Assembly: GCF_021484805.1 (NCBI RefSeq)
Contig: NZ_CP090557.1
Coordinates: 1,228,501-1,292,500, forward strand
Direction: 5' to 3'
Length of the DNA stretch: 64,000 bases
DNA from: Tellurirhabdus bombi
GTDB taxonomy: Bacteria; Bacteroidota; Bacteroidia; Cytophagales; Spirosomataceae
Below are positions 11,093 through 63,467 of this stretch, one piece after another. Both the position numbers and the translations under genes were made by a program. Numbering within the stretch: the first letter of the stretch is position 1; each line of letters begins with the position of its first letter. Below the pieces are notes generated by a model. It was not told where the DNA came from. It did no database searches and worked only from the letters and a program-made list of their open reading frames with translations.

Positions 11093-11519
11093 TATTATGG
11101 GTTAATCGCGAAAGATAATTCATTGCCTGTTGCCGCGCAAAATTAGTTGCAACCGACGTCAGAATACCCATAATGGCCCCACCGATTGCTGATTTTTTAG
11201 GTGCATCCTCGGCTGCTTTCGTGGCGCGGTGTACCTGAGCCTTTTGGCTATGCTTAGGGTAGTATTTATCGGCATCTTCATCGTAGTAAGCCTCTTCATC
11301 CTCTTCTTCATCTGATTTAGAATCAGGGAGAATAAGATTGGCGACTAGATAAACTGCCACACAAACCCCAGCGACCAGTGCCACCGTTTTACCTACTTCA
11401 GTTGCCTCGCCTTTTAGTGAATTGACATTGGTTTCAATTCGGCTTTTATATTCCTCGGTTGCCTCCATCAATTCGGCACGGCGGGCTGAAGTATCCGAAA
11501 AAAATACATTCGGGTCCAT
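11037..11519 (-). CDS. Hypothetical single-pass membrane protein with acidic segment
   Basis: No family recognised. The 160-residue product has an N-terminal helical region, one membrane segment (about 44-64, KTVALVAGVCVAVYLVANLI), a strongly acidic stretch just after it (SDEEEDEEAYYDEDAD), and a Gln/Pro-rich tail. Its last 56 bp overlap the pcrB-like gene in another frame, and the holin-X-like gene lies 65 bp upstream, so the three genes are probably one transcription unit. The arrangement resembles small envelope-stress protein pairs (YqjD/YqjE style), which is inference. Confidence 0.7.
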   Translation of the reverse strand: MDPNVFFSDTSARRAELMEATEEYKSRIETNVNSLKGEATEVGKTVALVAGVCVAVYLVANLILPDSKSDEEEDEEAYYDEDADKYYPKHSQKAQVHRATKAAEDAPKKSAIGGAIMGILTSVATNFARQQAMNYLSRLTHNNAAKQQPASVQPTQPASY

Positions 11520-11584
11520 AGATTGAGCGTTCTAAAATTAATAAAAAAATGAATTAACCGTTATTTCTCGTCAGATTGATTGCC

Positions 11585-12016
11585 TTATTCTACTGATCGC
11601 TCCGTATAAGATTGGCGAATTGAAGCCTCTGTTTGCTCGCGTAACTCGCTGATAGCGTCCGTCTTTTCCTGCGCTTTCTTCTCCTGTTGGGTCTTTATCA
11701 TGCCGTAAGCCATCTTTCGGATGGACCCAGAAAAGTAATTTTTTCCCAGAGCCCAAATGATCGTCAACACCATGAAAAAACCAGCAACAATCAAAAAGCC
11801 AAGATAACGGCTATCGAGTACATGGTTCAACCAGGCAGCCAGTAAACTGAATAAAAATATCGTTGTGATCGTCGCTAAAAAACCAAGAATCACGCCGTGA
11901 ACGGCATGAACAACGCCCTCCTCCACCTTATTGCGTGTCTCAAGCTTGAAAAGCTCTATACGCGCCTCGAGATATTTAAAGATCCCTTCTCTAATCTCAT
12001 CTAATTTTTCTAACAT
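11585..12016 (-). CDS. Phage-holin-family / YqjE-like membrane protein (Holin-X)
   Basis: The 143-residue product has a charged amphipathic N-terminal helix (EGIFKYLEARIELFKLETR), two membrane segments (about 42-66 and 73-95) and a lysine/glutamate-rich C-terminal helix. This layout matches the Holin-X (YqjE-like) family, which in spite of the name is chromosomal in many bacteria and not linked to lysis. First gene of the probable three-gene unit with the acidic membrane protein and the pcrB-like gene. Function unknown. Confidence 0.75.
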   Translation of the reverse strand: MLEKLDEIREGIFKYLEARIELFKLETRNKVEEGVVHAVHGVILGFLATITTIFLFSLLAAWLNHVLDSRYLGFLIVAGFFMVLTIIWALGKNYFSGSIRKMAYGMIKTQQEKKAQEKTDAISELREQTEASIRQSYTERSVE

Positions 12017-12107
12017 GGCCGTCTTCTAGTTAGTGGCTGTATGGTAGTACAAATTATCCGCTAATTTGTTTGGAAAATATTTTTTTCGGGCTAAAATATA
12101 AAGCGGT

Positions 12108-12115
12108 TATTTTTG
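12108..12115 (+). promoter_or_regulatory. Possible -7 box of the SprT-porU unit
   Basis: TATTTTTG fits TAnnTTTG. No -33 partner lies at a normal distance. A start of transcription near 12122 would precede both possible start codons of the SprT-like gene. Confidence 0.3.
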
Positions 12116-12167
12116 TTCGTTTCCAATAAGCTGCGCCCCTATTACGTTGGCGTTACCAGACTCATCA

Positions 12168-12782
12168 ATGAGCAATAGAAGTACATTTCTGCGCTATGTT
12201 CCCGAAAAGGCGGCTGATTATTGCACCCAATTATGGACCCAACATCAGTTCACATTTCGCATTACCCAACCTCGTAAAACCAAGCTAGGCGACTTTCGGG
12301 CAGAGCCGGGAAAAGGCTGCACCATTACCGTCAATAATAACCTGAACACCTGCGCCTTTCTGATTACTTACCTCCACGAAGTAGCCCATCTTCTTGCTTA
12401 TCAGCAATGGATTCGTTCCGCGCGGCGACGACGCCTTCAACCGCACGGTTCAGAATGGCAAAAAGCGTTTCACGCTGTTATGCAGCCGGTTCTGAACGAA
12501 TCTGTCTTCCCAGACTCTGTTTTAGTGCCATTAATTGATTATCTTCGTAGCCCGGCGGCCTCGACCGGAGCGCATTCCGGCTTAACGAAAGCACTCCGGC
12601 AACTAGACAGCAAACCTGCCAGTTATTGTCTGTTAATTGACCTCGGGGAAGGCGAACCGTTCCGTTTTTCAGAGAAAGAATATGTGCGGGGTATGAAACG
12701 GCGTACCCGCATCGTTTGTACAGAGAAAGACACCAATCGCAGGGTGTCGGTTTGGGCGCATGTCTGGGTGGAAAAAATATAA
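12168..12782 (+). CDS. SprT-like zinc metalloprotease-domain protein
   Basis: SprT-like protein of 204 residues (211 if a TTG 21 bp upstream is used; the ATG is preferred because the extra seven residues look non-coding). The zinc motif HEVAH is at residues 70-74, with a third histidine in QPHGSEW (residue 93), as expected for the SprT fold. Human Spartan of this family cuts DNA-protein crosslinks; the bacterial role is less clear. Its last 23 bp overlap the start of porU, suggesting translational coupling. No zinc-ribbon cysteines are visible at the C-terminus. Confidence 0.85.
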   Translation: MSNRSTFLRYVPEKAADYCTQLWTQHQFTFRITQPRKTKLGDFRAEPGKGCTITVNNNLNTCAFLITYLHEVAHLLAYQQWIRSARRRRLQPHGSEWQKAFHAVMQPVLNESVFPDSVLVPLIDYLRSPAASTGAHSGLTKALRQLDSKPASYCLLIDLGEGEPFRFSEKEYVRGMKRRTRIVCTEKDTNRRVSVWAHVWVEKI

Positions 12783-53273: not shown

Positions 53274-53518
53274 CAAAGAATAAATCAGTCTGTTTGGTTC
53301 CCGGGAAGTATTTAACGCTGCAGTTTAATAAAAACAGCAAATTGGTCAATTCCTTTTTGTTTCTTACGCTTGACTCGTGTAACTAATTTATTGACTTAGG
53401 TTGCATGCTGACGTTACATCCGTCAATAAATTGTATCATTTTTACAAGACTGTGTGCCGAGCTTCGCGCTAACTGATGTATGACTTTTTTGATTAACCTG
53501 CTTTTTTACAATGCGATA

Positions 53519-54193
53519 ATGAACTATAACGTCTGGTCGCTCAAACGTTTTGTTCACCGAATTGCGCGGCTGGTGCCCGCCAAGGCCTCTATTGTTGACG
53601 TTGGTGCCGGAGAAAGCCCTTACAAATCGTTGTTTTCGGCCGCTAAATATACAAGCACAGACTGGGCTGGCACCACCGACCATCACCAGTACGCGGCAGG
53701 CATCGACGTGATTTGTCCCGCCGACAACATGCCTTTTTCAAATGAAAGCTTCGATTTTGCCCTTTGCACGCAGGTTTTGGAACACGTTCGTTACCCGGAA
53801 AAAGTCATTCAGGAGATTGGCCGCATTCTAAAACCGGGGGGGATGCTGTTTATCAGCGCTCCGCAAACCTGGCAGGAACACGAGCAGCCGCACGATTACC
53901 ACCGTTTTACCCGCTTTGCTTTTCGGGCTTATGCCGAAGATAATAATTTTGAGGTCGTGGAAATCACGCCCCAGGGAGGTCGTTTTCGGGCTATTGGTTA
54001 TTTGATGGTCTGGTCGTTGCCCTACGTATTTAAGAGCTATTTTGGTCGAGCTGGTTTTGTAGGTGCTGCGCTCTTTTTTTACCCAATTAATTTTCTGATT
54101 GCTCTGATTTTTGCCCTGCTTGATCCGCTAGACCGCGAAAAGGAATTAACCCTCACGTATGAATGCATCTTCCGCAAAAAAGACAGCCGCTGA
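53519..54193 (+). CDS. Class I SAM-dependent methyltransferase
   Basis: Methyltransferase-11-type protein of 224 residues from the chosen ATG (MNYNVWSLKRF); an in-frame ATG 39 bp upstream is possible. SAM motif IVDVGAGESPYKSLF, acidic strand end YTSTDWAG, and FDFALCTQVLEHVRYPEKVIQEIGRILKPGG are typical. A hydrophobic stretch near the C-terminus (GFVGAALFFYPINFLIALIFAL) may bind the membrane. It overlaps the next GT2 gene by 35 bp and starts a four-gene plus-strand glycan cluster. Acceptor probably a sugar or lipid-linked glycan (inference). Confidence 0.88.
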   Translation: MNYNVWSLKRFVHRIARLVPAKASIVDVGAGESPYKSLFSAAKYTSTDWAGTTDHHQYAAGIDVICPADNMPFSNESFDFALCTQVLEHVRYPEKVIQEIGRILKPGGMLFISAPQTWQEHEQPHDYHRFTRFAFRAYAEDNNFEVVEITPQGGRFRAIGYLMVWSLPYVFKSYFGRAGFVGAALFFYPINFLIALIFALLDPLDREKELTLTYECIFRKKDSR

Positions 54194-55013
54194 ACCGCTG
54201 GTGAGCGTCATCATGCCGGTTTACAATGCGGAGCGGTATGTGCGGCAGGCCGTCGAAAGCATTCTGCAACAGACCTATACGAATCTGGAATTGTTGATTC
54301 TGAATAACGGCTCTACCGACGCCACTCCCCGGATTATTGCTTCGCTAGGGGCGCAGGACGCACGAATCAGAATCATTACGCATGACAAACCGCTCGGTTT
54401 TGGTGGCGAAAAAGCGTCTAATCTGGCTGAAAATAGAGCAAAAGGAAACTACATCGCCAAGCTTGACGCCGATGACATCGCCCACCCCGACCGACTGGCC
54501 AAACAGGTAGCCTTTCTGGAGGCTAACCCTGACGTATTTCTTGTTGGCAGCTGGCTCTCGATTATTGATTCGGAAGGAAAAGTGGTTGGTAAACGCGAAT
54601 ATCCACTGACGCATGAGGCTATTTATCAGGGCTTTTACTTTCGCTGCTGCGTTGGAAATCCGGCGGTTATGTATCGGAGTCACGTCGTTCGGGGGGAATT
54701 TTACCAATTGCGATTTCCGCATTTTAACGATTATTACAGCCTGTTTCTGCACATGCGGGCGGGCCTGCGGTTTGCCAATCTTCCTGAGCCCTTGACTCGG
54801 TATCGCGTCCACACTACCAACACGGTTTTTACCGATATTCGGGAAAAGTGGAATACCAACATGGCTATCAAACGAACGTTTGTAGAGGAATTTGGATATC
54901 GACCCGTTCGAAAAGATGTGCTTTTACTGAATACAATTACCTGGCTGCTGAATAACTTACCGTCGGCAACCTTTGCTTTTATACTACGCCTTCGGGCAAA
55001 ATTATCCGTCTAA
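54159..55013 (+). CDS. Glycosyltransferase family 2
   Basis: Inverting GT-A glycosyltransferase, 284 residues, cytoplasmic. N-terminal VSVIMPVYNAERYVRQAVESI and LELLILNNGSTDATP, then the metal-binding DADD in YIAKLDADDIAHPDRL. The conserved middle NPAVMYRS and NDYYSLFLHM hold the acceptor region. Overlaps the methyltransferase by 35 bp; the FkbM gene follows 18 bp after the stop. Probably adds one sugar to a surface glycan; donor not determinable. Confidence 0.92.
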   Translation: MNASSAKKTAAEPLVSVIMPVYNAERYVRQAVESILQQTYTNLELLILNNGSTDATPRIIASLGAQDARIRIITHDKPLGFGGEKASNLAENRAKGNYIAKLDADDIAHPDRLAKQVAFLEANPDVFLVGSWLSIIDSEGKVVGKREYPLTHEAIYQGFYFRCCVGNPAVMYRSHVVRGEFYQLRFPHFNDYYSLFLHMRAGLRFANLPEPLTRYRVHTTNTVFTDIREKWNTNMAIKRTFVEEFGYRPVRKDVLLLNTITWLLNNLPSATFAFILRLRAKLSV

Positions 55014-55031
55014 GATTATTTGCGAAACGCT

Positions 55032-55856
55032 ATGGCTCTGTTCAAATATGTTCTGGATCGTCTGCGAACCGTTATCCGGGTTCCGTTTCTGTACCGGAAT
55101 TTTCTCACGGCCTACGCGGACTATTTTCGACTAATTTCGGACCGAGCGGTAGTTTACGAACTTCGGAATGGCATGCGCTTTAAAGCCCGGGCCGGGAAGT
55201 TTGACATTGCCATGATTTCCGAAGTGATCGACGAAAAGATCTACGAGCGAAAAGCGCAGGATATTCTAATTCGGCCCGACGACACCATCGTTGATATTGG
55301 CGGCTTTATTGGTGATTTCGCCGTTTTTGCCGCCCGAAAAGCGCCACACGGTTCCGTTCATTCCTTTGAGCCTAGCCCCGGAAGTTACCAGCTTATGGAA
55401 GAAAATATTGCTCTTAACCAACTTGGCAACGTGGTCACTCACCAGAAAGCCGTGGCGGGCGAATCGGGCGTTTTAGAGTTACTGATTCCAGATTTTGCGG
55501 AACATTCCAACACGACGGACCCCGCGTTGCTGGGCAACGGTTCCTTCCAGAAATTCACGGTTGATAGCGTGGGCATCAACGCTCTGCTAGCCGATTTGCC
55601 GCATCTTCCTACGTTTATGAAAGTCGATTGCGAAGGGGCCGAATTTGGCATTTTTGATACGATTGAGGATGGCTACTTAGCGAATCTACGTTGTTTAATT
55701 ATTGAGTATCACCTCCACGACCGGCAAAAAGACCAGCGAGCGACAGTCTTAAAAAAACGCTTAGAGCCTTATTTCCACCTGCATGATAAGCCATTGGGGA
55801 CGCAGCAGAATCTGGTGCTGGGCATGTTGTATTGTCGAAGTAAGAACCTTCGTTGA
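55032..55856 (+). CDS. FkbM-family methyltransferase
   Basis: SAM-dependent O-methyltransferase of 274 residues from the ATG; a TTG four codons upstream is less likely. Motifs DDTIVDIGGFIGDFAVFAARK and VHSFEPSPGSYQLMEENIALNQL bind SAM; FMKVDCEGAEFGIFDTI is the family hallmark. FkbM proteins in glycan clusters usually methylate sugars. Third gene of the cluster, with the GT4 gene 10 bp downstream. Confidence 0.9.
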   Translation: MALFKYVLDRLRTVIRVPFLYRNFLTAYADYFRLISDRAVVYELRNGMRFKARAGKFDIAMISEVIDEKIYERKAQDILIRPDDTIVDIGGFIGDFAVFAARKAPHGSVHSFEPSPGSYQLMEENIALNQLGNVVTHQKAVAGESGVLELLIPDFAEHSNTTDPALLGNGSFQKFTVDSVGINALLADLPHLPTFMKVDCEGAEFGIFDTIEDGYLANLRCLIIEYHLHDRQKDQRATVLKKRLEPYFHLHDKPLGTQQNLVLGMLYCRSKNLR

Positions 55857-55866
55857 GCGCACCGTC

Positions 55867-57243
55867 ATGGCTGGAATGAAACGCACCATCCTCAAACGCA
55901 TCCTGAACGAAGCCGCTCAGGGGAATTTTGACACCGTTCGGAAAATTGCGAATTTAGTCGTGGCTGAAATTCCGTTTGAGTATCGTTCCTACCAGACATT
56001 TGCTCGCCATTTTTTCGTTACCCATCAACCAATCGGCACGAAAAAAATCCTGTATCTGGTGCCGGGATTCAATTACGGCGGGGCCGAAATCACGGATTGT
56101 TACCTGATTGATGGGCTGGCCCGGCAGGGTTTTACGGTTTATCTGGTTGGTACAGATTTGACTGTGCCGTCAAAAATCTGGTACGACCAATTTAGCCGGT
56201 CGGCGCAGGTGGCGCTGTGGCTGCCCGATTTTGCGCGTAATCCGGGTCTGCAAACGGATTTTCTCCTTCGGATGGTTGTTCATTTTGGCATCGATCTGGT
56301 TTTTAACCGAAACAGCGGAGCCGGTTACCGCAGCTTACCAAAATTCAAGCAACTGCCTTACTTAAAGCTGGTTGACCTGCTTCATACCCACAATTTCGGC
56401 AACGACTGGATTCTGTATTCCAGGCAGAATGCATCATTGCTCGATCGGCGCTACGTGACCAGTGATGATTTAAAAACCTACGCTGCCAAGCACGGCTCTG
56501 TCCCAGGTCACAAGATCCAGACGATTTACTGCGGCACCGACGCCGATACCTATCCCCCACTTTCTGAACGATCAAACCGCCGAGCGGCGTTTTTAGAATC
56601 GCTTGAGCTGCCTACCGAAGCGAAGATTGTCACCTATTACGGGCGTTTCTCCGACCAAAAAGATCCCTTGCGCTGGGTAGCGGTAGCCGCCAAGCTGCTG
56701 GCTAAAGCCCCTGCAATCCGCTTTGTGCTGGCGGGCGACGGTGAGCTGTTGGAGGAGACAAAAACCGCAATTCAACAACAGAACTTGGAGCCTTACGTAC
56801 GCTTCACGGGGCGGCTCGACACCGTGTTTGACATTGCTTCGGCTACGGATGTGTTGTTACTCACGTCTAAGTTTGAAGGGTTACCCACCGTCTTTTTTGA
56901 ATTTCTAATGATGGGAACACCCATCGTTACGACGAATGTCGGCGGCGTCAACGAATGCATTTCCTCCGAGGTGTTTGGTTTTGTCGTGCCGTTGCAAGCT
57001 TCCGACAAGGAAATTGCCGATCAGGTACTTCGCTTTCTCACCCCGGAGCAACATACGTCCGAACGGCAATACCAACGTCGGCAGCATATTCTGGATACGT
57101 TTACGGTTAATCGGATGCAAGCCATTTATGCGGAGGAATTGACGGCGCTTATCCGGCCGGTTGATTTACTGGCGAAGCGGCAGCAATTACATCAACTCTG
57201 GCAGCAACAGTTCCGCAAAAGTTTGCCCGAACCGGCTCATTGA
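55867..57243 (+). CDS. Glycosyltransferase family 4
   Basis: Retaining GT-B glycosyltransferase of 458 residues. The ATG chosen (MAGMKRTILKRIL) lies 10 bp after the FkbM stop; a longer frame into the upstream gene is rejected. ILYLVPGFNYGGAEITDCYLIDGL starts the N-terminal Rossmann domain; YYGRFSDQKDPLRWV, FVLAGDGELLEE and the E-x7-E motif in FEGLPTVFFE lie in the C-terminal donor domain. An extra 45-residue helical N-terminus precedes the fold. Last gene of the plus-strand set; convergent with DUF2304 with 6 bp between. Confidence 0.92.
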   Translation: MAGMKRTILKRILNEAAQGNFDTVRKIANLVVAEIPFEYRSYQTFARHFFVTHQPIGTKKILYLVPGFNYGGAEITDCYLIDGLARQGFTVYLVGTDLTVPSKIWYDQFSRSAQVALWLPDFARNPGLQTDFLLRMVVHFGIDLVFNRNSGAGYRSLPKFKQLPYLKLVDLLHTHNFGNDWILYSRQNASLLDRRYVTSDDLKTYAAKHGSVPGHKIQTIYCGTDADTYPPLSERSNRRAAFLESLELPTEAKIVTYYGRFSDQKDPLRWVAVAAKLLAKAPAIRFVLAGDGELLEETKTAIQQQNLEPYVRFTGRLDTVFDIASATDVLLLTSKFEGLPTVFFEFLMMGTPIVTTNVGGVNECISSEVFGFVVPLQASDKEIADQVLRFLTPEQHTSERQYQRRQHILDTFTVNRMQAIYAEELTALIRPVDLLAKRQQLHQLWQQQFRKSLPEPAH

Positions 57244-57249
57244 CAGCTA

Positions 57250-57609
57250 TCATTTTGTTGAGGACCGATCTTCTTTTCCGAGCTTTTCCGCGCTTCGCAG
57301 GGCATCACGCCGGTTGATGGCCGTGATGGTTTCGTCCAGCTTCAAGATGCGGCGATACAAGGCAACCAGCGCGTAGGCTCCCACCATAAACAGGAGGTAA
57401 AATACCAGATCAACCCCACGACCTACGCCCAGAATCTGCGCCAACGCGCTGGTCAAGTCTGGATAAATCGTGAATATAATGGCCACGACAACGCCTGCCA
57501 GCACAAAAAGCCGATACACCAGCCGATTGCGAAACGCGGTCGCGGCCAGGAGCGCAATTACCAGAATTAGCGCAATCAGAACAAGTTGTATCGGCTTCAT
57601 TGACAGCAT
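57250..57609 (-). CDS. DUF2304 membrane protein
   Basis: Small membrane protein of 119 residues with three hydrophobic segments (about 4-23, 31-50, 68-90) and a charged cytoplasmic tail (RRILKLDETITAINRRDAL). DUF2304 proteins are often next to GT2 genes of polyprenyl-phosphate sugar synthesis; no reaction is known. Its ATG overlaps the GT2 stop by one base (TAATG), so translation is coupled. It occupies the place of the small GtrA flippase in GtrABC-like systems (inference). ATG at codon 4 is an alternative start. Confidence 0.85.
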   Translation of the reverse strand: MLSMKPIQLVLIALILVIALLAATAFRNRLVYRLFVLAGVVVAIIFTIYPDLTSALAQILGVGRGVDLVFYLLFMVGAYALVALYRRILKLDETITAINRRDALRSAEKLGKEDRSSTK

Positions 57610-58292
57610 TATCGAAGGTATTTACTAACCACAAGATCAAACAAAATATTAAACGAATTAGTCCAGGACTGGCCTTTCAACTTGCTGTAATCCGTATAGA
57701 CCACGTGCGTGTCCAGCTCGGCTAACCGAAGCTCATTCAGCCGCACCTGCGCCAGAATTTCGGTCGCGTGGGCCATCCGGTTTTCGCGTAGCTGTAGTCG
57801 TTCCAGCGCCTGACGGTTCATTACCCGAAAACCATTGTGTGCGTCGGTTAGCCACAGACCTGTTAGCAAGCCATTGATCACCGTCGCCGTCTTCAGAATA
57901 AAGCGCTTCAGAAAGGGAACCCGCTGCGTGTCTTCGTTCCGCAAAAAACGGGAACCGATGACAATATCCAGCGGATCTTCCTGCAATTTTTGGATAAAAC
58001 GTGGAATATCAGCCGGGTTATGCTGCCCATCGGCATCGAAATGCACGGCAATTTCGCCTTTCATCTGGTACACAAAATCCATCCCGGTTTGCAAAGCCGC
58101 ACCCTGACCCAGGTTAATCGGATGCCTCAAGTAATAGATCGGCAAATCCTGCAATTGCGACCGGGTATCGTCTGTGGAAGCATCGTCTACGACCACAATC
58201 TGATAGGCATATCCCAACGACAGGATCGTCTGCCGAATGACTCGTCCTTCATTATACGCCGGAATGATGACGAAGATGTTTTCATTAGTCAT
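57609..58292 (-). CDS. Glycosyltransferase family 2, polyprenyl-phosphate sugar synthase type
   Basis: GT-A protein of 227 residues related to dolichyl/undecaprenyl-phosphate mannose or glucose synthases: VIIPAYNEGRVIRQTI, IVVVDDASTDDT, LRHPINLGQGAALQTG, FDADGQHNPADIP and VIGSRFL. It lacks the C-terminal membrane helices of GtrB, so the neighbouring DUF2304 protein may supply membrane anchoring (inference). The ATG overlaps the preceding gene by 8 bp; a GTG one codon earlier is possible. Middle gene of a coupled three-gene cassette. Confidence 0.9.
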   Translation of the reverse strand: MTNENIFVIIPAYNEGRVIRQTILSLGYAYQIVVVDDASTDDTRSQLQDLPIYYLRHPINLGQGAALQTGMDFVYQMKGEIAVHFDADGQHNPADIPRFIQKLQEDPLDIVIGSRFLRNEDTQRVPFLKRFILKTATVINGLLTGLWLTDAHNGFRVMNRQALERLQLRENRMAHATEILAQVRLNELRLAELDTHVVYTDYSKLKGQSWTNSFNILFDLVVSKYLR

Positions 58293-60348
58293 CACGCCGG
58301 TAGATTGAAATACTTCCTAACGTCGTCACGGGTTTCATGCAGCGAATCTCCGGCGCCTGCGGGGCGTGGTCGAAGATAACGTATTTGACATTAAGCGCTT
58401 TCAATTTGGGCGAACAGGGATCTAACCCAACATTATAGCCATCGTAGAACTGGTTGTTCATGATCACCGTATCGCGGCCATCGATGTACGAGTAAAACAC
58501 CGTATGGGCGTAACGATTATAAACCGTATCGCGTTTGCCGCTCGGGTCCAGCACCCGCATGGTCTTAAAATCGGGCGTTTGCTTTACGCCACCCAACACA
58601 TTTACGCCCGCCGCCTGGGTTAGATACCCAATGTATTGGCTTCCATTGACCAGCCAGCGCGCCTTGGGCTCTTTCTGGCTAATCTCCCGAATGGCTTTGT
58701 AGAGGCTATGATCCGTAATTGGACTCAAACCAACCGCAATCGGATTTACCGAGAAGTTGTGCAGCAGGAACAGGGCAATGCCCAACCCAAACACCCAATT
58801 GCGAATCACCGGACTCACCTGCGGCAGTAAAACAATATTCAGCGCCAGGAAAAAGATGGTTGGCAGAATGAGCTGATAGGTTTTGAAGAACCCGTTTGAA
58901 TTCGTAACATTCAGCGAGGCCGCGTAAATCATCACAGCCACCGCCGCCAGTCCTAACACCAGCATGGGCACCAGATCTTTCTCGACCGAGCGGCTTCGTA
59001 GGTAACCGACGTAAGTAACCGCCAGCACGACATTGCCCACGCCAAACGGTACTTGTGTCCGCCGCGTCGGGCTCATGCTCATCAGGGTTAGCTTGCCGAG
59101 TGTTTCCGGGAAACCAAATTCAATCCAGATAAGCGTGAACGCCAGAAAAGCCAGCAAGCCAATCTGCACAAAATCCACCGTTTTCTGCTTGTAGAAGAGA
59201 TAGACCAGCGACAGGAAAATGACGGGCGTAAAGGTTAGCGAGTGTGAAGCTTCGCAGATATTCAGCCATTCTTTCGGCAGTTTTCGCTCGTCGAGCTGCC
59301 AGCCGTAATATTCGGAAAACCAGTTTGACACGAAGCCAGTGCCGCCGAGTTCGCGCCGCTGGCCCGGATAGGCCGTATTGGTGATGACGTCCAGCGTTGA
59401 TTTGGCATCGGTATAAAACGCATACAATCCAGCTCCAACGCAAACCAAAGCGCCCGCTATGGCCACCAGCTTGATAGGAATCTGGCTCAGTAAATCTTTA
59501 TTTTTGGCATGATTGATCAAATACCCGATGCCTGCAAAGAGAATCAGGTAAGCCAGCGGCACCTGATAAGGCGGGTAGAAAAGCAAGACGTAACAGGCCA
59601 GCGAATAGGTCAGGCCCAGCGCCGCCGCAAAAATAGGAATCGGTTTGCGACTAAACAGCCAGTAAATGGCGGCGACAAACATCAGGCAGGCAAAGGTGAT
59701 CATTTCGGGCACCCCCACCGACATCCACCATTGTGTACTCGACGAAAGTAAAAGCCAGAAAGCACCTAACACCGAGAGCCAGAAGCTATTGCGCGTTAAC
59801 AGCAGGAAGAAAAGCAACCCCGCCGCTAGCAGCCCGAACACCTTAAAGTTCCAATACCAGGAGAAACCCGTTTCCATGCCAAAGGCCAGAAACCCCCACA
59901 ACGAAGGCCGGAAAATCATGGAAATATGCTTGGTTGGCCAGCCCATCAGCGGCATCCGCTCGCCGCCAATGGCCGGATTTTCGAGGGGAAAACCGTTGAG
60001 TACCTGCGAAAGATAACCCGGCGTGGCACCGGCGTAATCGTCCATGCGAATCTGGCGGGGTGTACCGGCCCAGACGCCCTTTTTCAGGTCCGATCCGTCG
60101 GGAATCACCTGATTCCACATGGCCACGGACGAGTAATTAATTTTCAGTAAGGTCAGGAAAACAAACAGACCGAGGCAGGTAAGCAGAAACCACTTTACTC
60201 GCTTATCGAAATGAATGAGCCGGTGGTTTTCCGGCAATGAACTTGAAGGGGGAGCAGCGACGGCAAGCGTTTCTTTGGGGGTACTCGGGGTGGTCAGAAT
60301 AGCTGGTGGTTTCGTACCAACTAAAGTTCCTTTTTTCTTCTTTGACAT
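58285..60348 (-). CDS. Large polytopic membrane protein, putative GT-C glycosyltransferase
   Basis: 687 residues with roughly a dozen hydrophobic segments and a soluble C-terminal domain (about 580-687). After the first segment (53-69) comes an extracytoplasmic loop with RMDDYAGATPGYLSQVLNGF; the Asp103-Asp104 pair in this loop is where GT-C enzymes carry their catalytic acidic residues, and the pattern resembles RSDEW-type bacterial membrane proteins. A Lys-rich and Pro/Ser/Thr-rich N-terminal tail precedes the membrane part. First gene of the cassette with GT2 and DUF2304, so it probably uses the polyprenyl-phosphate sugar they make. YfhO-like protein is an alternative label. Confidence 0.7.
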   Translation of the reverse strand: MSKKKKGTLVGTKPPAILTTPSTPKETLAVAAPPSSSLPENHRLIHFDKRVKWFLLTCLGLFVFLTLLKINYSSVAMWNQVIPDGSDLKKGVWAGTPRQIRMDDYAGATPGYLSQVLNGFPLENPAIGGERMPLMGWPTKHISMIFRPSLWGFLAFGMETGFSWYWNFKVFGLLAAGLLFFLLLTRNSFWLSVLGAFWLLLSSSTQWWMSVGVPEMITFACLMFVAAIYWLFSRKPIPIFAAALGLTYSLACYVLLFYPPYQVPLAYLILFAGIGYLINHAKNKDLLSQIPIKLVAIAGALVCVGAGLYAFYTDAKSTLDVITNTAYPGQRRELGGTGFVSNWFSEYYGWQLDERKLPKEWLNICEASHSLTFTPVIFLSLVYLFYKQKTVDFVQIGLLAFLAFTLIWIEFGFPETLGKLTLMSMSPTRRTQVPFGVGNVVLAVTYVGYLRSRSVEKDLVPMLVLGLAAVAVMIYAASLNVTNSNGFFKTYQLILPTIFFLALNIVLLPQVSPVIRNWVFGLGIALFLLHNFSVNPIAVGLSPITDHSLYKAIREISQKEPKARWLVNGSQYIGYLTQAAGVNVLGGVKQTPDFKTMRVLDPSGKRDTVYNRYAHTVFYSYIDGRDTVIMNNQFYDGYNVGLDPCSPKLKALNVKYVIFDHAPQAPEIRCMKPVTTLGSISIYRRDD

Positions 60349-60519: not shown

Positions 60520-61485
60520 ATGAAAACTTTCCTGAAACGAGCCGGATTTATGGTTCTGTCCGGTGGTCTGCTGGCTTACGTGCTCCGGAATATTGCCTTA
60601 GCTGACCTGAAAGCACAATTTCAGCTGGCATCCTACGGCTGGCTGGCGCTCGTTGGAGCCATTCTGTTGGCCATTCATATTATTCGCGCACTGCGCTGGC
60701 AACTGGTTTTGCGGCAAATGGGTTATCGACCGCCCCTGCTTCACACAACGGTGGCCATCATGGCGGGGACTTTTGCCAGTGCCCTCATTCCCGGCGCGGG
60801 TGAATTTACGCGCTGCGGCACCCTGACCCGAACGGATGGCATTCCGCTTTCGCACAGCTTCGGCTCGGTACTGGCGGAGCGCATCGCCGACTTGCTGGTA
60901 CTGCTGGCCGCCATCGCGTTGATGCTGGTTCTGGAACTACCGCGTTTTCGGGAATATGGCCTGAGTCGATTTACCTTCACACTCGCACCGGTACTTTACG
61001 GCCTGGGCGCTCTGTTTCTTCTCAGTTTATTTTTTTATGTTCTCTGGGTTGCTTGGCTTTACAAATACCAGGCTCCGCTGCAAAAGCGCATTTCAAATTT
61101 CTTTGGTCAATTCAAAACCGGATTTCTAAGCGTTAGCCAATTGCCCAACCCCGGCTGGTACGTCCTCACTACCCTCCTCATCTACGCTCTTTTCTGGGCG
61201 GCTACGTACGTAGCTTTCTTTGCGTTACCATCCATGCAAACGCTTGCCCCTTCAGCCGCTTTTAGCATTTTAACCCTGAGTTCCATCAGTGGGCTGGCCG
61301 TACCGACACAGGGGAGCATCGGCACCTATCATCTGGTGGCGCAGTGGGTTTTAATGACCTACGGACTATCCGAAGTGGCGGGTGCTGTCACGGCCACCTT
61401 CCTGCATGCCGTGTTACTGGGGCTGAATCTTTTCTGGTCGGCCATTGGCTTTTTCATTCTGCCGTTTCTCCCAAAACAGAGATAA
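60520..61485 (+). CDS. Flippase-like membrane protein (LPG synthase TM / UPF0104 family)
   Basis: 321 residues with about eight membrane segments. The family hallmarks are visible: IIRALRWQLVLRQMG, AGTFASALIPGAGEFTRCGTL, VLAERIADLLVLL and VPTQGSIGTYHLVAQWVL. The family includes MprF-type flippase domains and proteins associated with glycan or lipid export. Divergent from the GT-C-like gene across 171 bp, so it may move the lipid-linked sugar or another lipid across the membrane (inference). Confidence 0.85.
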   Translation: MKTFLKRAGFMVLSGGLLAYVLRNIALADLKAQFQLASYGWLALVGAILLAIHIIRALRWQLVLRQMGYRPPLLHTTVAIMAGTFASALIPGAGEFTRCGTLTRTDGIPLSHSFGSVLAERIADLLVLLAAIALMLVLELPRFREYGLSRFTFTLAPVLYGLGALFLLSLFFYVLWVAWLYKYQAPLQKRISNFFGQFKTGFLSVSQLPNPGWYVLTTLLIYALFWAATYVAFFALPSMQTLAPSAAFSILTLSSISGLAVPTQGSIGTYHLVAQWVLMTYGLSEVAGAVTATFLHAVLLGLNLFWSAIGFFILPFLPKQR

Positions 61486-61576: not shown

Positions 61577-62782
61577 ATGAAACAGGCAGTTTTAACCCTT
61601 TTTCTGGTAATTAGCTTTCAGGTTTGTGCGCAGCCCGATGTGCAAAAGCGTCTGCAAACGCAGCTTGACCAGGCAAAAGAAGGCGAAACCATTGTGCTCG
61701 ATGTAGGAATTTATACCTTCACCAAGGGTCTGGTGCTGGCCTCAAAAAAGGGCGTTACTCTCAAAGGGCAAGGTGCTGATAAAACCATTCTGGATTTTAA
61801 AGGCCAGTCTGATCGAACGCCGGGTCTGCACATTAAAAATACCGAAAATCTTCTGCTCGAAGCCTTAACAATTCGCGATACAAAAAGCGATGGCATTACC
61901 GCCCAGCAATCAGAGGGGCTTCATTTCCGGCATGTTACAGTTGAATGGACGGATATTCCCGACCGCCGAAACGGTGCCTACGGCATCTGTCTGACCCACT
62001 GTAAAAAGGTCTTACTCGAATCCTGCATATCCATTGGCGCTTCCCGAGTTGGTATTTATTCGAGCCAGTCAAAACAGGTGATACTGCGCAAATGCCGCGT
62101 AACGCACAACGTGATCGGCCTGCAAATCGAAAATTCGCTACTGGTCGATGTTTACGAAAATGAAATTTACGAGAATACTGCTGGTATTTTGGTTGCTGAA
62201 AGGCCCAATCTGGCGCAGAGAAAGGGCGGTAACATTCGTATTTTTAACAACCGGATATTAAACAATAATTACCCTAATTTCTCCCGAAAACGAAACGCCG
62301 CCAGAAAGATTCCAGCCGGGCTTGGCATTGCCCTGATTGCCGCGACCAAAGTAGATGTTTTTAGCAACGAAATTCGGCATAACAACAGCATTGGAACAGG
62401 CATTTTCAGTTATCACCTTATCGATGATTCCGTGAAAGATCGTACCTACGATCCTTATTCAACCGATATTTCCATCCACGACAATGTATATGAGCGCGCT
62501 CCCGTTCCTTTCCAGGGAAAGGGCAAGCTTGGTCGCGTTATCCGCTCAAAATTTCGATTTGGCAAAAAAATGCCGGATATTATTTTCGATGGCAACGTAA
62601 AGGCGTCGGCTCAATCGGAGGCAGAATTAAAAATCTGTATCCGAAACAACCAGAACGCCTCTTTTGCGAACCTGGACGCGGCCAATGATTTTCGGGATGT
62701 CTCGCAGGATTTGGGTCCCTATGATTGTGGGCTTCCTCCTTTGGACGAAGTACTTGTAAAAACATTCACCGATAAACAATAG
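61577..62782 (+). CDS. Secreted right-handed parallel beta-helix protein
   Basis: 401 residues. Signal peptide cut before Gln19 (VCA/Q). The body consists of beta-helix coils with regular LxIxN-type strands (GLHIKNTENLLLEALTIRDTKSDGI, NVIGLQIENSLLVDVYENEIYENTAGI), the fold of polysaccharide lyases and epimerases, but no catalytic set can be assigned. A cysteine pair in the C-terminal part (KICIRN, YDCGLPP) could form a disulfide. Located 91 bp after the flippase-like gene on the same strand; role in surface polysaccharide binding or processing is possible. Confidence 0.85.
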   Translation: MKQAVLTLFLVISFQVCAQPDVQKRLQTQLDQAKEGETIVLDVGIYTFTKGLVLASKKGVTLKGQGADKTILDFKGQSDRTPGLHIKNTENLLLEALTIRDTKSDGITAQQSEGLHFRHVTVEWTDIPDRRNGAYGICLTHCKKVLLESCISIGASRVGIYSSQSKQVILRKCRVTHNVIGLQIENSLLVDVYENEIYENTAGILVAERPNLAQRKGGNIRIFNNRILNNNYPNFSRKRNAARKIPAGLGIALIAATKVDVFSNEIRHNNSIGTGIFSYHLIDDSVKDRTYDPYSTDISIHDNVYERAPVPFQGKGKLGRVIRSKFRFGKKMPDIIFDGNVKASAQSEAELKICIRNNQNASFANLDAANDFRDVSQDLGPYDCGLPPLDEVLVKTFTDKQ

Positions 62783-62987: not shown

Positions 62988-63467
62988 ATGATTTCCAAAA
63001 AAGCCAAATACGCCATTAAAGCCCTTAAGGTTCTAACCGAAGAATATGGTAAAGGCCCCGTTCTGATTTCTTATATTTCTGCAAAAGAGAAGATTCCGAA
63101 GAAATTTCTGGAAGCCATCCTGCTCGAACTTCGTAACCAGGGAATTCTGCAAAGTCAGAAAGGAAAAGGCGGTGGCTACCTGCTCCGTGTTGATCCTGAG
63201 CGCGTTAATTTGGCCCAGGTGTTGCGGGTTATTGATGGTCCTATTGCCCCTACACCCTGCGTATCCAAAAATTTCTACGTTCGTTGTGACGACTGCACCG
63301 ATGAAGTAACCTGCGCTATTCGCCCCATTATGGAACAGGTACGTGATGCTAACCTGGCCGTTTACGAAAGAACGACCTTGAAACAGTTTGCCCTGAAAGT
63401 AGAAAGCCCGGCTGAACCAATGGCTCAACCGGACTCCAATATACCTTCGTCAATAATATCAGCTTAG
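62988..63467 (+). CDS. Rrf2-family transcriptional regulator
   Basis: Winged-helix regulator of 159 residues. N-terminal ISKKAKYAIKALKVL and the wing GKGGGYLL are diagnostic. Four cysteines (Cys91, Cys100, Cys103, Cys109) lie in the region that binds an iron-sulphur cluster in IscR, although the spacing differs, so a cluster or thiol switch is possible. No Fe-S or sulphur-assimilation gene is adjacent in this window. Its stop codon overlaps that of the convergent DUF4301 gene by 4 bp. Confidence 0.92.
   Translation: MISKKAKYAIKALKVLTEEYGKGPVLISYISAKEKIPKKFLEAILLELRNQGILQSQKGKGGGYLLRVDPERVNLAQVLRVIDGPIAPTPCVSKNFYVRCDDCTDEVTCAIRPIMEQVRDANLAVYERTTLKQFALKVESPAEPMAQPDSNIPSSIISA

Follow-up and report, generated by a model that had tools for sequence, protein, structure and literature searches.

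A predicted four-component glycosylation cassette with an apparently exchangeable GT2-DUF2304 donor pair in Tellurirhabdus bombi and other Spirosomataceae

Which product is assembled by a large polytopic membrane protein, a family 2 glycosyltransferase (GT2) and a small DUF2304 membrane protein when their three genes overlap one another on the same strand? This question is raised by positions 57250-60348 of a stretch of 64,000 nucleotides (hereafter the window) of the bacterium Tellurirhabdus bombi, whose genome is a single contig of 4.94 Mb. An initial annotation, made from the letters alone, had placed three overlapping minus-strand genes here, and their coordinates and overlaps were reproduced: 8 nt between the transferase and GT2 genes, when the latter is read from its probable start (the ATG at 58292, the codon next to the GTG of the longer frame, giving 227 residues), and 1 nt between the GT2 and DUF2304 genes. 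A chance overlap of open reading frames (ORFs) is ruled out, the three genes being found again, and again linked, in other members of a bacterial family. Together with a divergent neighbour of the PF03706 family, these genes are likely to encode a transmembrane glycosylation system with four components, comparable to GacIJKL. In broader terms, a lipid-carried sugar is very probably made, flipped and attached to something outside by the products of these four neighbouring genes. The GT2, activated by the DUF2304 protein at the inner membrane face, would load polyprenyl phosphate with one sugar taken from a nucleotide sugar, and the PF03706 protein would flip the resulting polyprenyl-phosphate-sugar outward. 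A DUF7657/DUF7654 enzyme of the GT-C type, with an Asp-Asp/Glu motif in its first outer loop and a periplasmic C-terminal domain, would then move the sugar onto a surface glycan.

The gene content, the GT-C fold, the conservation of the motif, the linkage and the matched inheritance of the GT2 and DUF2304 genes were all computed in this work. The 687-residue protein is recognized in Pfam by DUF7657 (PF24677, E 5.5e-137, 457.2 bits for a gathering cut-off of 26) and DUF7654 (PF24672, E 7.2e-37, 126.7 bits, cut-off 27). The middle gene encodes a GT2 (PF00535, E 9.2e-31) and the last one a DUF2304 protein (PF10066, E 1.1e-17, 64.7 bits, cut-off 25.5). The product of the divergent gene exceeds the cut-offs of both PF03706 (113.2 bits, cut-off 33.4) and the flippase-like model TIGR00374 (61.2 bits, cut-off 43.2).

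The large transferase was modelled with AlphaFold2 from a 56-sequence alignment, with a predicted local distance difference test score (pLDDT) of 89.6 and a predicted template modelling score (pTM) of 0.89; the transferase alignment A1 includes 56 of the 66 sources defined below. Thirteen long helices were counted ahead of the C-terminal domain (residues ~537-687), which, given a basic N-terminus inside, is predicted to lie outside. The GT-C-like character ascribed to this protein in the initial annotation was supported at the level of the fold, GT-C enzymes constituting the best 40 VIA matches and the best 21 Foldseek matches. The 40 VIA matches are GT-C enzymes by entry title, with Z scores of 7.5-12.5, and include Pmt, AftD, oligosaccharyltransferase (OST), DPY19, AftA, PglB, ALG9, ArnT, AglB and Emb proteins; in the translocon entries, the matched chain was taken to be the OST subunit. 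The forty-first match is unrelated (Z 6.2 over 78 residues). The 21 best Foldseek matches in the PDB comprise oligosaccharyltransferases, ArnT, AftD, DPY19 and Emb proteins, with E at most 0.001 in five only, and phmmer searches of solved structures with the 687-residue protein and the DUF2304 protein gave no match at E up to 1. The Asp-Asp pair noticed earlier in the first outer loop is indeed found there, as Asp103-Asp104 between long helices 1 and 2 of the model, in the sequence IRMDD (residues 100-104). The motif IRxD[DE] is kept in all 65 transferases examined and also in a plasmid homologue of Pseudomonas asturiensis that is 22% identical. Its place between the first two long helices presumably suits the catalytic acid of ArnT and PMT enzymes. 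On the basis of the model, the DUF7657/DUF7654 protein is a predicted GT-C glycosyltransferase and IRxD[DE] its predicted catalytic motif. No paper was found under the name of DUF7657 or DUF7654, and a single one under that of DUF2304. A kinship with Rv3779 was not detectable with the PF24677 profile, which has no match in the control genome of Corynebacterium glutamicum, where an orthologue of Rv3779 is reported (PMC9671496). At two loci, L085 (8573-10650) and L087 (8656-10735), two overlapping ORFs, of ~601-605 and 91 residues, are found in place of a single transferase frame. The second ORF of L085 holds the later part of DUF7654, and this may reflect either a C-terminal domain that is naturally split or decay.

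PF24677 is found above its cut-off in 62 of 222 Spirosomataceae genomes, in 5 of 395 genomes taken phylum-wide (three of these five being Spirosomataceae) and in none of 14 control genomes; a single-sequence scan of genome contigs yielded one relative. DUF2304 exceeds its own cut-off in 67 of the 222 genomes, namely in 60 of the 62 that are DUF7657-positive as against 7 of the 160 others; the assemblies of the two DUF7657-positive genomes without it (G212 and G251) are fragmented. Stretches were taken around 65 places which, with the window, make up 66 sources, 65 of them with a usable transferase gene. The transferase fragment at a contig end in L122 stands outside these 65 loci, and G251 (a fragment) and G137 (below cut-off) were left out. 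The GT2 and DUF2304 genes lie within 4.5 kb of the transferase gene at 62 of the 65 loci, the exceptions being L042, L121 and L117. The divergent PF03706 gene is present as well at 55 of these 62 (it is absent at L033, L035, L043, L044, L090, L107 and L108). Conservation of the three-gene linkage in relatives, which had been suggested as a check, is thus found in 60 of the 62 Spirosomataceae copies of the transferase, 55 of these 60 having the divergent PF03706 gene in addition, though the order varies. Pairs downstream of the transferase on its own strand are found at 51 loci; of the upstream pairs, 9 share the strand of the transferase and 2 lie on the other one. Because this linkage outlasts changes of gene order, it argues for a working unit. 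L042 (9206-11278) and L121 (2673-4769, on a contig of 5.4 kb) harbour orphan DUF7657 paralogues, devoid of a GT2-DUF2304 pair and of a PF03706 neighbour, which form one well-supported clade as sisters on the tree. In L032, the transferase is separated from the donor pair by an inserted DUF2142 membrane protein gene (11321-12742).

The two proteins of the pair agree by hydropathy with what had been noted of them: the GT2 of the window is devoid of membrane helices, whereas three are seen in the DUF2304 protein. Among the 62 linked GT2s, 48 have no hydrophobic segment and 14 have one. The motif DADGQ is located at residue 87 (GTG numbering) of the GT2, which aligns with the dolichol-phosphate-mannose synthase of Pyrococcus furiosus (5mlz) across the DxDxQ region, reported to bind metal in this enzyme and in WpsA (PMC10821137). 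The best NCBIfam model is that of the polyprenyl-phospho-N-acetylgalactosamine synthase PpgS (NF058614) and, in PHROGs, the nearest family is a GtrB-like one of O-antigen conversion. The AlphaFold2 model of the DUF2304 protein (pLDDT 83.6, pTM only 0.53) has helices at 6-25, 30-48, 50-60 and 65-118, and this layout of a hairpin, a short helix and a long fourth helix is the one published for WpsB. The DUF2304 alignment (A3) comprised 34 of the 62 linked proteins and 3 unlinked to DUF7657. Streptococcal GacJ, of the DUF2304 type, is reported to enhance GacI (PMC8327497). WpsB is described as raising the activity of WpsA, with a modelled contact via its long fourth helix, and WpsA/WpsB-like pairs as being fused elsewhere (PMC10821137), whilst Rv3632 is reported to assist PpgS (PMC9671496); a review already covers systems whose synthase comes with a distinct membrane protein (PMC8035078). 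By analogy, DUF2304 is best read as an activating membrane partner of the GT2 and not as a flippase. The initial annotation had proposed an anchor or a flippase: the likeness to GacJ and WpsB speaks for the partner or anchor, and the flippase is set aside as less likely on the same precedents, which are synthase partners. Distant DUF7657 homologues in L117 (another family of the same phylum) and L130 (Pseudomonas) have as neighbour a GT2 with two C-terminal helices; in the L130 protein, two hydrophobic stretches, weaker ones, are also present close to the N-terminus. DUF2304 was not found in these stretches of 15 kb and 18 kb, the best hit (E 0.033) falling in an antisense frame of an EamA-like gene. 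Since these self-anchored GT2s occur without DUF2304, the latter appears to replace the built-in membrane anchor of the GT2.

The GT2 motif splits the pairs into two types, type A with DADGQ (18 of 18, including the window) and type B with DGDGQ (44 of 44). Type B pairs, too, have a DUF2304 protein as their small component (four of four tested), and the type of the GT2 matches that of the DUF2304 protein at all 62 paired loci. This strict matching and the WpsB-like model are indirect indications of a putative interface between GT2 and DUF2304. When distances were correlated over the four-gene loci (16 of type A and 39 of type B), the GT2-DUF2304 couple gave the best of six correlations (r 0.97 in A, 0.82 in B), followed by GT2-transferase (r 0.94 and 0.72). 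On a careful transferase tree (59 sequences, 57 of them typed), the donor type changes five times, four of these changes being forced by well-supported branches, and gene order changes four times. Shuffled labels require 14.1 changes of type on average, so the types are also clustered on this tree. It omits L117, L043 and L044 (long branches) as well as L090, L085 and L087 (short or split transferase ORFs); some of its long branches meet, according to a warning of the tool, and the transferase of the window is itself a long branch. A quick 56-row tree with the long branches included gives six donor-type and five gene-order changes. Between L090 (type A) and L033 (type B), the transferases are 73% identical, the GT2s 36% and the DUF2304 proteins 27%. 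Because the type changes on the transferase tree and in cases such as this one, the donor pair is, judging from these sequence comparisons, exchanged as a unit beneath a kept transferase. This is the reverse of the modularity reported for Gtr in Shigella, in which a serotype-specific transferase is served by conserved, interchangeable gtrA and gtrB (PMC3259042).

The families of the pair also occur apart from DUF7657. Four genomes (L123-L126) contain a lone DUF2304 gene with no adjacent GT2, another use of DUF2304; its neighbours are secG and a gene for a MacB/FtsX permease, the families being those identified in L123. At L127, L128 and L129, type B GT2-DUF2304 pairs occur although no DUF7657 passes its cut-off in these genomes. 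These stretches also encode a protein of 637-648 residues with about six helices and, in both of those tested (L127 and L129), TPR repeats, which is possibly a TMTC-like GT-C enzyme acting on the same donor unit.

The gcvP gene lies within the fetched stretch (at most 20 kb) in 41 of the 62 Spirosomataceae copies, in 39 of them downstream on the strand of the transferase. On trees made with a quick model from the 34 loci at which GcvP is long (32 loci for PF03706), six donor-type changes are required for GcvP, four for the transferase, three for PF03706 and a single one each for GT2 and DUF2304. Fifteen hand-picked locus pairs were also compared. In the seven with GcvP at least 90% identical, the transferases share 45-70% identity in six and 87% in L089/L093, and the identity of PF03706 exceeds that of the transferase in six of the seven. 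Thus, L086 and L087 are 96% identical in GcvP, 76% in PF03706, 51% in the transferase, 29% in GT2 and 24% in DUF2304, and the corresponding values for L093 and L111 are 98, 95, 64, 62 and 45%. In L089/L093, PF03706 is less alike (59%) than the transferase, and in L026/L116 both have changed (PF03706 55%, transferase 45%). This situation suggests that recombination replaces cassettes at a constant chromosomal site near gcvP, PF03706 being kept in some cases and replaced in others, as in surface-antigen loci. A phage-borne seroconversion cassette was also envisaged and rejected: a pattern scan of viral contigs matched 92 stretches, none of them a DUF7657 relative, and a search of 72,556 records gave one distant plasmid homologue. 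In the window, methyltransferase, GT2, FkbM methyltransferase and GT4 genes occupy the plus strand between gcvP and the cassette (53480-57243), a set that varies in relatives.

The divergent gene at 60520, mentioned in the initial annotation as a potential fourth part, is probably one, being the divergent neighbour in 55 of the 60 paired Spirosomataceae copies. PF03706 proteins have been proposed as glycosylation flippases from archaeal gene neighbourhoods and from MprF (PMC5898192), and this function is likely here too, although it is the weakest of the roles drawn from characterised relatives. By Pfam, no GtrA- or Wzx-type flippase is present in the four-gene unit, where PF03706 is found; no search aimed at Wzx was made. 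In L117, near the distant DUF7657 homologue and the self-anchored GT2, a 121-residue, four-helix EamA-like protein (11753-12118) is a candidate alternative flippase.

A GT2/GT-C module for lipid-linked sugar transfer, as first put forward for this locus, is backed by the conserved linkage and by the GT-C fold, and its chemistry, like the activating role of DUF2304, is suggested by characterised relatives. Several points weigh against the four-component system. The transferase is only 7-13% identical to the matched GT-C chains, which makes this fold evidence only, and VIA Z scores below ~13 may, as the tool warns, reflect a mere helical arrangement. Except for L043, L044, L117, L122 and L130, all DUF7657 loci belong to one family, and their counts are not independent. 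The best model of the GT2 misses its curated cut-off (219.7 bits for 370) and galE is rare near the transferase, which weakens any assignment of the sugar. As to PF03706, relatives are found in 218 of the 222 Spirosomataceae genomes, so that occurrence is uninformative and the link rests on adjacency. Its distances to the transferase give the weakest of the three correlations of the latter (r 0.76 in A, 0.45 in B). Finally, GtrA-family (PF04138) genes exceed the cut-off ~80-115 kb away in the same genome and could do the flipping. It is accordingly conceivable, if rather unlikely, that PF03706 is a neighbour with another job and that flipping is performed by DUF2304, which is small, polytopic and within the operon, or by a GtrA-family protein encoded elsewhere, in the way that a distant GtcA-type flippase is reported to serve several Gram-positive systems (PMC8035078). 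The five of 60 paired copies without PF03706 fit this explanation, as does the abundance of the family in Spirosomataceae. The divergent linkage in the 55 others speaks against it, as do the WpsB-like model of DUF2304, with its hairpin and long helix, and the reports on GacJ, WpsB and Rv3632, presented as synthase partners besides which Wzx or unidentified factors do the flipping (PMC8327497, PMC10821137, PMC9671496).

The nature of the sugar leans towards an N-acetylhexosamine (HexNAc) or a galactose-type sugar, a HexNAc-like one for type A of the window being a guess. The PpgS model scores 190-220 bits with type A (four tested) and 84-102 bits with type B (three tested). The galE gene is found near the transferase in 2 of the 66 sources, L043 and L044, from another family, and not in the window; the galactosamine locus of corynebacteria is reported to include an epimerase gene (PMC9671496). 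The glycosyltransferase and methyltransferase genes between gcvP and the cassette, which vary among the 20 relatives mapped, suggest a variable surface polysaccharide or lipopolysaccharide as the acceptor, which is again a guess. The adjoining glycosyltransferase and methyltransferase genes (53480-57243) could also belong to another scheme, in which the lipid-linked sugar is extended by cytoplasmic enzymes, as with WpsA/WpsB, and the whole chain is transferred by the GT-C protein acting like a ligase or OST. OST and PglB are among the fold matches, GlcNAc-P-C55 (GlcNAc, N-acetylglucosamine) is reported to be extended before flipping in lactococci (PMC10821137), and PF03706 would be compatible, having been proposed to flip lipid and/or saccharide (PMC5898192). 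This scheme is judged unlikely, given that the set of neighbouring glycosyltransferases varies in the relatives mapped, whereas the transferase-donor unit stays. More improbable still is an enzyme acting on a lipid head group or, like PMT, on exported proteins: the two best VIA matches are the protein O-mannosyltransferases Pmt1-Pmt2 (Z 12.5) and Pmt4 (Z 12.4), but AftD scores nearly as high (Z 11.3) and the frequent replacement of the cassette is more like a surface-antigen locus. Nothing observed points to type IX-exported glycoproteins, named as possible acceptors in the initial annotation, though no search aimed at them was made. The transfer of a single sugar to a surface glycan remains our preferred proposal. 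The features concerned are listed in Table 1; the cassette is also adjoined in the window by genes for a NosD/beta-helix protein (61577-62782) and an Rrf2 regulator (62988-63467).

Table 1. Positions of the cassette genes in the window and of the GtrA-family genes elsewhere in the same genome
Feature	Coordinates	Strand	Details
Predicted GT-C type transferase, polytopic	58285..60348	-	687 residues; DUF7657 residues 52-448, DUF7654 residues 543-684
GT2 (GT-A fold), putative polyprenyl-phosphate-sugar synthase, helix-free	57609..58295	-	228 residues from GTG
Small DUF2304 protein with three membrane helices, candidate activator or anchor of the GT2 (as GacJ and WpsB)	57250..57609	-	119 residues
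PF03706/TIGR00374 protein, divergent, proposed polyprenyl-phosphate-sugar flippase	60520..61485	+	Pfam, NCBIfam
GtrA-family PF04138, outside the window	1370228-1370599 of the genome contig		Over cut-off
GtrA-family PF04138, outside the window	~1405939-1406391 of the genome contig		Two matches, one with an in-frame TAA

Among known systems, the closest is GacI/GacJ/GacK/GacL of Streptococcus pyogenes, which adds the GlcNAc side chain of the group A carbohydrate and is reported to combine a helix-free GT2, an adjacent DUF2304-type partner, a flippase and a GT-C transferase (PMC8327497, PMC8035078, PMC10821137). Its flippase is of the Wzx type, whereas here it is likely a PF03706 protein; GacL is of the PMT-2 type according to a review table (PMC8035078) and the transferase here is DUF7657; and the substrate is a Gram-positive wall polysaccharide, while the host here is Gram-negative. 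The lactococcal GlcNAc-P-C55 synthase WpsA and its activator WpsB share the GT2 and the small partner of the GacJ kind, in the same layout, but their product is reported to be extended to an oligosaccharide repeat and flipped by a Wzx-type protein, unlike the proposal made here. The PpgS/Rv3632/Rv3779 pathway for the galactosamine of arabinogalactan, with its C. glutamicum counterpart, includes the GT2 whose model is best matched here and a small helper protein (PMC9671496), and the epimerase of its locus is echoed by galE in L043 and L044, though not at the window locus. GtrA/GtrB/Gtr(type) O-antigen glucosylation follows the same logic, a lipid-linked sugar being made inside, flipped and transferred by a polytopic enzyme. 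The initial annotation had compared the cassette to GtrABC, and in the strict sense this likeness does not hold: the unit contains no GtrA, as Pfam gave no hit to the GtrA family at E up to 1 for any of the four proteins (neighbour included), its GT2 has no membrane helices of its own, whereas GtrB is self-anchored, and DUF2304 is taken as a partner and not as a flippase. Nor is a constant gtrA/gtrB with a variable transferase found, and membership of GtrABC was rejected on three features, the missing GtrA, the helix-free GT2 and this modularity. The kind of system is therefore already known; a DUF7657/DUF7654 transferase, PF03706 in the place of the flippase and an exchangeable donor pair appear in no paper among the matches listed, and there was no paper on this locus among the matches listed for Spirosoma, flippase and LPS (lipopolysaccharide) and for modular-donor topics.

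These results give the uncharacterised Pfam families DUF7657 and DUF7654 a testable role as GT-C transferases, put PF03706 forward as a polyprenyl-phosphate-sugar flippase and document, for a Gram-negative family, the GT2-DUF2304 donor unit. Should this pair indeed be exchangeable under one transferase, these loci would offer naturally matched and mismatched parts for probing the donor specificity of GT-C enzymes, and a candidate locus for phage-receptor variation. A more speculative possibility, rather less likely than not, is that DUF7657 is acceptor-specific and donor-tolerant, fed by exchangeable GT2-DUF2304 cartridges via a general PF03706 flippase, the replacement of cassettes near gcvP amounting to a serotype switch. 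The DADGQ and DGDGQ types would in that case probably load different sugars. If this is true, the cassette would be a serotype-switch locus that re-decorates the surface of environmental Spirosomataceae, the inverse of phage Gtr modularity.

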